This document shows positions 7,149-33,815 of a stretch of DNA of 64,000 bases, piece by piece. The translations under genes were made by a program, and so were the position numbers. This DNA is from Halalkalirubrum salinum (GTDB lineage: Archaea; Halobacteriota; Halobacteria; Halobacteriales; Haloferacaceae). Location: NCBI RefSeq assembly GCF_005543295.1, contig NZ_SRSG01000059.1, positions 75,247 to 139,246 of the forward strand, given 5' to 3'. The notes beneath the pieces were generated by a model, which made no database searches, was not told where the DNA came from, and saw only the letters and a program-made list of their open reading frames with translations. Each line of letters opens with the position of its first letter. Positions within the stretch are counted from its first letter, which is position 1.

Positions 7149-7793
7149 ATGCAACCGGACGACGGATCGGCACCCGACGAGCGCCCGCAGACGGCTGTTC
7201 CTCGACATGAAATCGTCGCCGCAGCCGAGGCGGTAGCAGAGGGCGAGGCGATCGTCTATCCGACCGAGACGGTCTACGGACTGGGTGCGGATGGCAGCGA
7301 TGCCGACGCCGTTTCACGCGTGTACGAACTCAAGGGCCGATCGGCCGACAAGCCGCTGTCGATCGCCGTCCCAGATATCGAGACTGCCGAGCACTGGGCA
7401 CACCTGACCGATCGAGATCGATCGTTCATGCGATTGTTCCTCCCCGGCCCGGTGACCGTCGTCGTCAAGCGAAATTCCTCCTTACCACCCCAACTTACCG
7501 GCGGCGGCAATCGCGTCGGCATCCGGATTCCCGATCACCCGGTTGCACTCTCCCTCTTGGAAGAAACCGCGCCGACACCCGTGACCGCAACGAGCGCAAA
7601 CCGAAGCGGTGAGCCGAGCATCAGAAATCCCGAAGATCTCCCAGCGCCAATTCGTGCGGGCGTCGCGGCGATCGTCGACGCCGGCACCACTCCCGGCGGT
7701 GTGGGGAGCACTGTTGTCGATATCGAGCGGGCGACGATCCACCGTCGTGGGGCGATCGCCGACGATGTCGAGCGGTGGCTGGCCGAGCGGTAG
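7149..7793 (+). CDS. sua5: L-threonylcarbamoyladenylate synthase (Sua5/YrdC)
   Basis: A 214-residue YrdC-domain protein that makes threonylcarbamoyl-AMP for the universal t6A37 modification of ANN-decoding tRNAs. Visible signatures are PTETVYGLG, the K-x-R/KPLS substrate-binding pair (LKGRSADKPLS), the basin segment FLPGPVTVVVK, GIRIPDHP and the SANRSGEPS motif. It has the short YrdC form without the C-terminal Sua5 domain. The last codons and stop (WLAER-stop) form the first unit of a 15-bp tandem array that runs on into the intergenic space. Confidence 0.95.
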   Translation: MQPDDGSAPDERPQTAVPRHEIVAAAEAVAEGEAIVYPTETVYGLGADGSDADAVSRVYELKGRSADKPLSIAVPDIETAEHWAHLTDRDRSFMRLFLPGPVTVVVKRNSSLPPQLTGGGNRVGIRIPDHPVALSLLEETAPTPVTATSANRSGEPSIRNPEDLPAPIRAGVAAIVDAGTTPGGVGSTVVDIERATIHRRGAIADDVERWLAER

Positions 7794-7880
7794 CTGGACG
7801 TTCCAGTAGCTGGCCGAGCGGTAGCTGGTCGAACGGTAGCTGGCCGAGCGGTAGCTGGTCGAGCGGTAACTGGACGTCTC
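7778..7880. repeat. 15-bp tandem array spanning the sua5 stop codon
   Basis: The unit GCTGGCCGAGCGGTA occurs exactly at 7778-7792, 7809-7823 and 7839-7853. Close variants are at 7793-7808 (16 bp, more diverged), 7824-7838 and 7854-7868, and a partial copy reaches about 7880. The first unit is the end of sua5 (codons for Leu-Ala-Glu-Arg plus most of the TAG stop). The array fills the space between convergent sua5 and the Cas4-like gene. Confidence 0.85.
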
Positions 7881-12161: not shown

Positions 12162-14366
12162 ATGACGGTTCTACAGGCGACCCGAGAGACGTTCTGGCTG
12201 ATCGGGCCGACGGGAAAAGCCGCCTTCTACTTTCTGGCGTCGGTTGCGATTCTCGTCTTTCTGTACGGCGTGTACGAGCGGTTTACGAGGTACACCCGAG
12301 GGAGTGAGGAGCCGATCGATCGACTGAGCGAGTTGCCCGCGCGGTTCGTGAGCGCCGTCAAAATCGTCGCCACGAATGAGAAACAGTTCGATCGAGACGT
12401 CTACGCCGGCGTGATGCACACGTTCATTCTCTGGGGCTTTCTCGTGTTGGTCGTCGCAACGACGATCCTTGGGATCGACATCGACCTGTATCGTCCACTA
12501 ACCGGCGAGTCATTTTGGGTTGGGGACTTCTATCTCGCCTACCAGTTCGTCGTTGACGCCTTCGGGCTGTTGTTCGTGATCGGCATCTCAATGGCGATGT
12601 ACCGCCGCTACGTCGTTGGCAACGCCCGGCTGTGGGGCAAACACACGGCCCGCGAGGACGACTTCTTTGTCTGGTCGCTATTCCTGTTGGGCGTTGGCGG
12701 CTTCCTCGTACAAGCGGTGTCCATGGTTGGCCAACCGCAGCGATCGGCCGAGACGGTGAGCTTCCTCGGCTACGCGATGGCTGAAGCCCTCCGCGCGATC
12801 GGGTTTGACGCCGCGATGGCCGCAACAACATACCCCGCGCTCTGGTGGAGCCACTCGATATTAGCGTTCGCATTCATCGCGTGGATCCCCTACGCGAAGC
12901 CGTTCCACATGCTCTCGTCGTTCGCGAACGTCGTCGTTCGTGACGAGAAGGCCGGTTCCCGGCTGCCGGGCGTGCCAGCCGATCTGGATCACGCCAACGC
13001 TGACTCGATCGACGATTTCACGTGGAAAGAGTTGCTCGACCAGGACGCCTGCACGAAGTGTGGTCGCTGTTCGTCGGTGTGCCCGGCCAAGGCCTCCGGG
13101 CGACCGCTCGACCCCCGAGACGTCATCCTTGATCTGAAAGCCTATCGCGAGGCGCTCGACGCCGGCAGCGAACAGCAACCGATCATCGCCGACGGCGGAA
13201 CTTCGGTTATCGACGCCGAGACGATGGAGTCCTGCATGGCGTGTATGGCCTGCATGGACGCCTGTCCGGTCGAAATCGAACACCTCTCGAGCTTCACGCG
13301 AATGAACCGCCAACTCACCGACGAGGGGGCGATCGCCCCGAGCATGCAGGACGTCTTCGGCAATCTCATGCAGAAGGGCAACACGTTCGGCGATCCGCAG
13401 GCCAAACGGGCCGACTGGGCCGACGAACTCGACTTCGAGATCGACGACGCCCGAAAGACCGAGGTCGAGTATCTGTGGTACGTGGGCGATTATCCGAGCT
13501 TCGACGACCGAAACAAGCGGGTCGCGCGATCGCTCGCGCGGATCTTCGAGGCCGCAGACGTCTCCTACGGCATCCTCTTCGACGATGAAAAGTACGACGG
13601 CAACGACATCCGCCGGGTGGGCGAGGAGTTCCTCTACCTCGAACTGGCGGGCCACCACGTCGAGTCCTTCGAGGCCTGCGACTTCGAACACATCGTCTGT
13701 ACGGATCCACACTCGTACAACACGATGAAAAACGAGTATCCCGAGATCGACTTCGCGGCGTTCGCCGACGATCCGGTGATGCCCTTCGAGTACGACGACG
13801 CGTGGAACGAAGACGGCGAGATTGGCGTGTTCCACTGGACGCAGGTCGTCGAACGGCTTGTCAACGATGGACGGCTCGATCTCTCCGGGACTGAGCTCGA
13901 TTACACCGTCACGTATCACGATCCGTGCCATCTTGGCCGCTACAACGGCGAGTACGAGGCACCCCGCGAACTGATCCGTGCGACCGGCGCAGAGTTACAC
14001 GAGATGCCACGCAGCCACGAGGACTCGTTCTGTTGTGGCGGTGGCGGCGGTGGTCTCTGGATGGACATCGACGAGGAGACAAAACCGAGCGAAGAGCGCC
14101 TGCGTGAAGCGCTCGAAGACACCGCCGCGGGCGATCGCATCGAGAAATTTGTCGTTGCCTGCCCGATGTGTACGACGATGTTCGAAGACGGCCGCAAAAC
14201 TGGCGGCTTCGAGGACGATCTCGAAATCGTCGACGTGGCCGAACTCCTGTTGGAGGCGCTGGAAACGAAGGGTGCGATCGGGCCAGCCGGCGCAACTGAC
14301 GCGGATGGCGGGGACGCCGCTGACTCGTCAACTGAAGACGGCCCGGGGCCAGCCGCTGCGGACTGA
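12162..14366 (+). CDS. Fused membrane Fe-S oxidoreductase (HdrE/NarI-like plus HdrD/GlpC-like)
   Basis: A 734-residue fusion. Residues 1 to about 260 form a NarI/HdrE-like membrane domain with about six helices and His residues suited to haem b binding. Residues about 285-370 hold two [4Fe-4S] motifs (CTKCGRCSSVCP and CMACMACMDACP). Residues about 440-690 form the HdrD/GlpC-like part with a CCG-type motif (CCGGGGGG preceded by DPCHLG) and a final CPMCTTMF. Such proteins pass electrons between a soluble dehydrogenase or thiol system and the quinone pool. A TTTTAAG element about 12133-12139 supports the ATG at 12162. The tail after residue 695 is low-complexity. Confidence 0.87.
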   Translation: MTVLQATRETFWLIGPTGKAAFYFLASVAILVFLYGVYERFTRYTRGSEEPIDRLSELPARFVSAVKIVATNEKQFDRDVYAGVMHTFILWGFLVLVVATTILGIDIDLYRPLTGESFWVGDFYLAYQFVVDAFGLLFVIGISMAMYRRYVVGNARLWGKHTAREDDFFVWSLFLLGVGGFLVQAVSMVGQPQRSAETVSFLGYAMAEALRAIGFDAAMAATTYPALWWSHSILAFAFIAWIPYAKPFHMLSSFANVVVRDEKAGSRLPGVPADLDHANADSIDDFTWKELLDQDACTKCGRCSSVCPAKASGRPLDPRDVILDLKAYREALDAGSEQQPIIADGGTSVIDAETMESCMACMACMDACPVEIEHLSSFTRMNRQLTDEGAIAPSMQDVFGNLMQKGNTFGDPQAKRADWADELDFEIDDARKTEVEYLWYVGDYPSFDDRNKRVARSLARIFEAADVSYGILFDDEKYDGNDIRRVGEEFLYLELAGHHVESFEACDFEHIVCTDPHSYNTMKNEYPEIDFAAFADDPVMPFEYDDAWNEDGEIGVFHWTQVVERLVNDGRLDLSGTELDYTVTYHDPCHLGRYNGEYEAPRELIRATGAELHEMPRSHEDSFCCGGGGGGLWMDIDEETKPSEERLREALEDTAAGDRIEKFVVACPMCTTMFEDGRKTGGFEDDLEIVDVAELLLEALETKGAIGPAGATDADGGDAADSSTEDGPGPAAAD

Positions 14367-14389
14367 TCGGCCAGCACCGCTGCGTAAAG

Positions 14390-14539
14390 CTACCTGCGCA
14401 CGCGGACGGTTCCGTCGCTCTACCTGCGCACGCGGACGGTTCCGTCGCTCTACCTGCACACGCGGGCGGTTCCATCGCTCTACCTGCACACGCGGACGGT
14501 TCCGTCGCTCTACCTGCGCACGCGGACGGTTCCGTCGCT
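14390..14539. repeat. Exact 30-bp tandem array (five copies) spanning the tfx stop codon
   Basis: Five contiguous 30-bp units (14390-14419, 14420-14449, 14450-14479, 14480-14509, 14510-14539) begin CTACCTGC(G/A)CACGCGG. The last unit is the true 3' end of the minus-strand tfx gene: it encodes Ser-Asp-Gly-Thr-Val-Arg-Val-Arg-Arg and the TAG stop. Because 30 is a multiple of three, every upstream copy repeats the same nine codons and stop in the same frame. Only copies three and four carry substitutions, so the array is young or homogenised. It fills the gap between convergent genes. Confidence 0.95.
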
Positions 14540-15007
14540 CGTGACCCCGATCGACACCCGTTGTTTGATTTCTCGGCCTTCGACAGCCTTGCCGGCAGCG
14601 TCGCTGACGACCTTCATGAGGTCCGGCGCGGTGTAGTTGACCTTCACGCCGGCTTCGTCGCAGGCGTCGTACACCTGTTTCGGCACGTCGTACAGGTCCG
14701 TCCCGGCCTCGATCGTCAGCCGGACGGGTGCTGATAACGCCTCCGAGAAGGCCACCGTTTCTTTCGCTTTCTCGATGTTCTCGCGGGCGCTCGATTCCAC
14801 GCTCGAGACGTTCGCCCGCGAGGTGCCGAGCATCCGGGCGATCGTCTGCTGTTTGATTCCCTGTTCGCGCAGCGCGAGCACCTCCGCCTGTCGTGCTGTG
14901 AGCACGTTCGTCTCCGGATCGAACCCAACCGCCGCGAGAAGTTCGTCGACATCGACGTCAACGCTCTCGTCGGAGGCCACCGTTCGATCGCTCCCGCCAT
15001 CTGCCAT
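14510..15007 (-). CDS. Tfx-family DNA-binding transcriptional regulator
   Basis: A 165-residue protein. After a Ser/Asp-rich N-terminus, a LuxR/sigma-like HTH (about residues 36-75: LTARQAEVLALREQGIKQQTIARMLGTSRANVSSVE) is joined to a conserved C-terminal domain (APVRLTIEAGTDLYDVPKQVYDACDEAGVKVNYTAPDL) diagnostic of the Tfx family. The founding member binds the promoter of a molybdenum formylmethanofuran dehydrogenase operon in a methanogen, but the haloarchaeal target is unknown. The ATG at 15007 gives the family length. Its stop codon is embedded in a 30-bp tandem array. Confidence 0.9.
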   Translation of the reverse strand: MADGGSDRTVASDESVDVDVDELLAAVGFDPETNVLTARQAEVLALREQGIKQQTIARMLGTSRANVSSVESSARENIEKAKETVAFSEALSAPVRLTIEAGTDLYDVPKQVYDACDEAGVKVNYTAPDLMKVVSDAAGKAVEGREIKQRVSIGVTSDGTVRVRR

Positions 15008-17916: not shown

Positions 17917-18076
17917 CCCGGCGGTTCATCAGCGATCGGTCCAACGGTAAGCAGCGATCGGTCCAGCGGTGAGCAGGGATTGCCCCGTCTGCTCAGCAGC
18001 GACCAACCGAGTGGTACGCAGCGATCGACCCGTTGGCTCAGCAGCGACCAACCGCGTGGTGAGCAGCGATCGGCAC
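17911..18076. repeat. 22-23-bp tandem array spanning the trm1 stop codon
   Basis: Seven full units start at 17911, 17934, 17956, 17978, 18001, 18023 and 18046, and a partial one starts at 18068. Each starts GA(T/C)(C/T) and ends (T/A)CAGC or AGCAG(C/G). The units diverge but keep the pattern GATCGGTCCAACGGTAAGCA. The first unit contains the trm1 TGA (17914-17916). Units alternate between a GATCG/GATTG type and a GACCAACCG type, suggesting that two-unit blocks were also duplicated. It occupies most of the 250-base space before the next gene. Confidence 0.82.
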
Positions 18077-22545: not shown

Positions 22546-22851
22546 ATGTCGTTTACCGTTCCGGCGTACGCGATCGTCGCGCCGTTCTTTTTTTCGCTCC
22601 TGTTCGTTCTCATCGGCTTTTGGATGGGGGTGAAGTACATCGAAAAGCGGGCGGCAGCGGTCGAGCGCGCAGAAGACGTTCCCGAACACCCGTTTGGCCT
22701 CGACGAGGCGATTAAAGCAGAGCACCGACGAAACATGGCGCTTGGTCCCGACGATATCGACGCGATCTACGGTACAGATAGCGACACCGAATCAGATACG
22801 AGCGTTGACGAGCATCATACTGACGACGACGAGCCAGCCGATCGCCGCTGA
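22546..22851 (+). CDS. Single-span membrane protein with acidic tail, unknown function
   Basis: A 101-residue protein with one N-terminal hydrophobic helix (about residues 6-27), a basic/amphipathic segment (KYIEKRAAAVERAEDVPEH) and a Ser/Thr/Asp/Glu-rich disordered tail. No known domain is recognised, although similar short membrane-anchored proteins are common in haloarchaea. Its last codons (Pro-Ala-Asp-Arg-Arg-stop) are the first unit of a 25-bp tandem array. Confidence 0.65.
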   Translation: MSFTVPAYAIVAPFFFSLLFVLIGFWMGVKYIEKRAAAVERAEDVPEHPFGLDEAIKAEHRRNMALGPDDIDAIYGTDSDTESDTSVDEHHTDDDEPADRR

Positions 22852-22980
22852 ACAATAGCCAGCCGATCGCCGCTGAACAATAGCCAGCCGATCGCTACTC
22901 AGCGATAGTCGTCCGATCGCTACTCAGCGATAACCGTCCGATCGTCACTGAGCAATAACCGTCCCGATCGACAGCGATCA
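22833..22980. repeat. 25-bp tandem array spanning a stop codon
   Basis: Five contiguous 25-bp units are at 22833-22857, 22858-22882, 22883-22907, 22908-22932 and 22933-22957, followed by a partial unit. Units one and two are identical and begin GCCAGCCGATCGCCGCTGAA. The later units drift. Unit one holds the last five codons and the TGA of the small membrane protein. Since 25 is not a multiple of three, the copies shift frame. The array lies between convergent genes. Confidence 0.93.
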
Positions 22981-33701: not shown

Positions 33702-33815
33702 GTCAATGTGGCTGTCTGAGCGATCGCAGGGATTGCAGAATCAACGCGGGAATCTAAGCGATCGCTGGCCCACAAGAATCAACATGGCTGTCTGAGCGAT
33801 CGCTGGCCCACAAGA
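33702..33815. repeat. 38-bp tandem array between divergent genes
   Basis: Three contiguous 38-bp units (33702-33739, 33740-33777, 33778-33815) share the core (G/T)CT(G/A)AGCGATCGC and an A/G-rich end. Units two and three agree over their last 24 bp, while units one and three agree in their first part (TGGCTGTCTGAGCGATCGC). Unlike the other arrays it lies upstream of both flanking genes, so it is not derived from a gene 3' end. Confidence 0.85.

Follow-up and report, generated by a model that had tools for sequence, protein, structure and literature searches.

Behind the stop codon of a tfx-family gene, the gene's own end is written again and again, each time with its own stop. Such a locus raises the question of whether the repeated end acts in translation or transcription termination, or whether it is a tandem duplication that has simply been tolerated. 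To answer it, we analysed the array within the window, that is, the whole 64-kb stretch of DNA under study, and compared it with its relatives and with similar arrays of the genus.

Anatomy of the array

The region 14390-14540 was recognised by TRF as a repeat of period 30 with 5.0 copies, 95% matches and a score of 274, versus a best score of 78 for any period of at least 12 among 30 dinucleotide-preserving shuffles of the window. The 30-bp array is thus far beyond chance expectation. Five units stand head-to-tail at 14390-14539 in exact register and with no gaps, which confirms the claim of the initial annotation that five 30-bp copies of the tfx end, each with a stop, are present. In tfx orientation the unit is AGCGACGGAACCGTCCGCGTGCGCAGGTAG, read by codon as AGC GAC GGA ACC GTC CGC GTG CGC AGG TAG, and equals the final nine codons plus stop of tfx. 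The count of five therefore stands, but these are better described as one gene copy and four derived copies (Table 1).

Three sites vary among the copies, and two of the three change an amino acid (Arg to Cys and Val to Ala). At the protein level the blocks, which had been described as identical, consequently differ and read SDGTVRVRR, SDGTVRVCR or SDGTARVCR. The unit gives one match, at this single locus, in the 62 contigs of its own genome. The copies abut at period 30 with no spacers between them, which sets the array apart from a CRISPR. Its position between convergent genes was correctly noted: the oxidoreductase gene on the + strand ends at 14366 and tfx on the - strand ends at 14510. 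The Tfx protein is 99% identical in the sister genome.

Table 1 Array copies, flanking genes and further arrays of the window
Feature	Coordinates	Strand	Basis
Copy 1, tfx 3' end, SDGTVRVRR*, ancestral copy	14510..14539	-	residues conserved in relatives' Tfx C-termini
Copy 2, SDGTVRVCR*, 1 change from copy 1 (Arg-to-Cys)	14480..14509	-	register and copy comparison
Copy 3, SDGTARVCR*, 3 changes from copy 1 (including Arg-to-Cys and Val-to-Ala)	14450..14479	-	register and copy comparison
Copy 4, identical to copy 1	14420..14449	-	register and copy comparison
Copy 5, identical to copy 1	14390..14419	-	register and copy comparison
tfx-family gene, 165 aa, TAG stop at 14510-14512	14510..15007	-	TFX_C E=1.4e-31; ORF end
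Convergent neighbour, 734-aa Fe-S / CCG-domain oxidoreductase	12162..14366	+	ORF and domain match
Same-class array across upstream gene's stop (...DDVERWLAER*), period 15/30	7767..7873	+	TRF and census
Same-class array across upstream gene's stop (...DDDEPADRR*), period 25	22838..22970	+	TRF and census
Further array at or near gene end	17930-18072		TRF

Ancestry of the copies

The Tfx C-terminus, near VTSDGxVRVRR, is conserved through relatives, which marks copy 1 as ancestral and the four that follow the stop as additions. No second copy was found at the approximately 50 tfx loci examined outside the genus. The comparison within the genus includes two genomes, one of this species and one of a sister ("halophilic archaeon SHRA6"); a literature search found no paper on the sister strain. 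The sister carries exactly two copies at and behind the tfx end, the second of which is only 29 bp long, and because one base is missing the frame of its array is broken. TRF and direct reading show this shorter copy, which escapes when downstream copies are sought with an ungapped 30-mer. The copy number at tfx is thus five here, two in the sister and one in all other tfx relatives examined. The recent expansion and copy-number variability put forward by the initial annotation therefore hold as a difference between sister species. Additionally, copy 3 and the sister's second copy have a GTC-to-GCC change in common, and this one shared base suggests that an array may be older than the species split.

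Census of arrays in the genus

We collected non-coding arrays with units of 12-80 bp and a TRF score of at least 80 by running TRF and a simple codon-usage gene caller over 698 kb from this genome and 320 kb from the sister. The sample of about 1 Mb holds 51 such minisatellites, or 2.0-7.5 per 100 kb depending on the stretch. Stops are crossed by 21 of the 51 and starts by none, while random placement outside gene interiors expects 12.4 ± 3.3 and 14.0 ± 3.0, respectively; gene starts are those of our own simple caller, and copy numbers are those of the assemblies. The excess at stops (21 versus 12.4) is modest, and could reflect an effect of the gene caller or a real 3'-end preference. The unit length is divisible by three in all 31 arrays inside genes, in 8 of 21 across stops and in 9 of 32 between genes (the stop and start count used a slightly different filter, with 30 inside-gene and 30 intergenic arrays). 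Since units outside genes show no bias to multiples of three, the in-frame tfx unit is an expected one-in-three event.

When arrays were paired with their orthologues in the other species, as far as this was possible, most pairs showed a different copy number or a different period. The units of the other listed arrays are unrelated to that of tfx. The array at 17930-18072, between a tRNA-methyltransferase-like gene and the one next to it, is a composite of nested 22- and 45-bp units and is rearranged in the sister. Stretches of 16 other haloarchaeal genomes contain 0-8 arrays per 100 kb. Three of these genomes (G011, G031 and G035) fall within the range of the genus, so the abundance of arrays is not unique to it. 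The count for G011 was made after filtering out its CRISPR-like array (L127:5928-8640, repeat GTTTCAGAAGAACCCTTGTGGGTTTGAAGC).

Two further observations were made in the same material. The hexamer CGATCG is very frequent in the genus, at about 5-6 per kb or 1.4-1.5 times the third-order expectation; it reaches 2.4 times expectation in genome G008, and in the remaining sampled genomes it is about as frequent as expected or rarer. This abundance resembles that of HIP1 in cyanobacteria. CGATCG occurs in 20 of 53 non-coding array units, versus about 8 expected from random intergenic stretches of equal length, for example at 22838-22970 and 33737-33815 of the window; the tfx unit lacks it. Separately, two identical tRNA genes stand in tandem with a period of 84 bp at G000 C10:159950-160107, with an anticodon read by eye as GTC (Asp), and are tandem in the sister as well.

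Origin of the array

Together, these data indicate that the array is very probably a VNTR-like minisatellite that arose from the tfx 3' end, was duplicated by slippage or short homology, was tolerated, and then changed in copy number. Specifically, replication slippage or recombination at short homology would have duplicated the last ten codons of tfx with the stop, and slippage or unequal recombination between copies would then alter their number. Extra copies would land in the untranslated spacer and be tolerated because copy 1 retains the full protein and its stop. A duplication over a gene start would upset the promoter or the start and be removed by selection. Selection may thus account for arrays lying over stops and not over starts, since duplicating a stop spares both protein and promoter. 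For the tfx locus itself we infer the slippage or recombination step, and also the effective neutrality of the extra copies, the latter from the absence of signals described below.

One event with a visible precursor was found genome-wide. A perfect 24-bp duplication including a TAA stop is present in this genome (G000 C10:292565-292617). The sister retains the pre-duplication state, one unit flanked by the 5-bp direct repeat AGGCG; for the tfx array, no such precursor has survived. Alignment gaps between the two species revealed two fresh perfect tandem duplications, a number too small for statistics on short homology.

Some of the arrays may be functional, or a preference for 3' ends may be real. 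A stronger form of this idea, in which an unusually active process of the genus favours tandem copies at 3' ends and some of the 3'-UTR arrays have been co-opted for tuning the ends or stability of mRNAs, with copy number as a reversible setting of expression, appears unlikely.

Tests for termination and readthrough

The initial annotation took the position between convergent genes to make the array a candidate terminator cassette, and it might serve both genes as a bidirectional terminator or 3'-end cassette. Every unit contains a self-complementary GACGG...CCGTC. Termination sites in Haloferax were reported to carry a T stretch when intergenic or AGATC when within coding regions, and one site of the hairpin type was confirmed as well (PMC7237163). 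Neither AGATC nor any T-run or A-run of at least four occurs in 14340-14560, and a pattern scan returned no terminator-like site at the array. Relative to shuffled sequences, the tfx strand folds slightly better (z -1.8), but the + strand (z -0.7) and the single unit (z about 0) are unremarkable. Two copies suffice in the sister and one in other relatives. The convergent setting is not special either, since the stop-crossing arrays tallied (n=25) lie in 12 convergent and 13 same-strand gaps. A terminator role is therefore quite improbable.

The copy number itself could be wrong, as the genome is in 62 contigs. Short-read assembly is weak at tandem repeats. Copies 2 and 3, however, bear substitutions of their own, one of which recurs in the separately assembled array of the sister, and we regard an assembly artefact as very unlikely.

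It had also been suggested that stop readthrough, or a frame-preserving deletion, would append identical nine-residue blocks; the Tfx C-terminus would then be switchable. The unit is indeed in frame in this genome. Each block is, however, closed by its own stop, and the extra copies carry the amino-acid changes described above, including two Cys residues. In the sister the second copy does not keep the frame, and the stop-crossing arrays of the genus show no bias to periods divisible by three (8 of 21). Such a switch is accordingly highly improbable, and the analysis gave no sign of readthrough or terminator function for the tfx array. Several arrays do stand behind genes in the same window, but insertion of a mobile or dispersed repeat family of MIRU-like or similar kind was rejected as scarcely credible, because the unit sits at one locus only, has its source in the coding sequence of tfx and is unrelated to the units of the other listed arrays.

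Significance

As a single locus the tfx array is ordinary, and the class of arrays is more useful. Gene 3' ends in this genus trap tandem duplications, in which the gene copy marks the original and the sister genome helps dating. With 21 arrays spanning stops and none spanning starts, the class gives a clear map of where duplications are tolerated. The arrays are also candidate typing loci. Finally, in-frame stops in such arrays should not be taken as recoding.

Comparison with known systems

The MIRU of Mycobacterium are tandem intergenic repeats that touch the ends of neighbouring genes, and the tfx array resembles them in being tandem and at gene ends. They form one sequence family at many loci, whereas the tfx unit is found at one.

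By the tests made here, the tfx array is a minisatellite or VNTR locus, a kind already known. It consists of head-to-tail units within the range of about 10-100 bp (5.0 x 30 bp), and its copy number differs between relatives (five versus two in the sister). Like the prokaryotic minisatellites surveyed previously (PMC6749651), it occupies one locus and has units tens of bp long, imperfect copies and a copy number that varies between relatives. It differs in that what is repeated is a coding-sequence end together with its stop, so that the original copy can be identified. The same survey found the short-repeat satellites of Halobacteria to be mostly coding (PMC6749651), whereas many arrays in this genus are non-coding.

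The kind is known also because Borg elements share the anatomy. Their tandem repeats can begin within the end of an ORF, have flanking partial repeats and turn over fast; genic units are divisible by three, and intergenic units only in 14-38% of cases (PMC9879509), so that intergenic units there, as here, are mostly not divisible by three. Borg units, however, are perfect, A-rich and located on extrachromosomal elements (PMC9879509), while those at tfx are GC-rich, show as many as 3 differences in 30 sites and lie beside conserved chromosomal-type genes. In Haloquadratum walsbyi, also a haloarchaeon, many deletions have occurred between short direct repeats, with indels at repeats of 4-20 bp (PMC3119063). 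Those events are deletions, whereas the arrays described here are tandem expansions, and the same step in the reverse direction would yield duplications.
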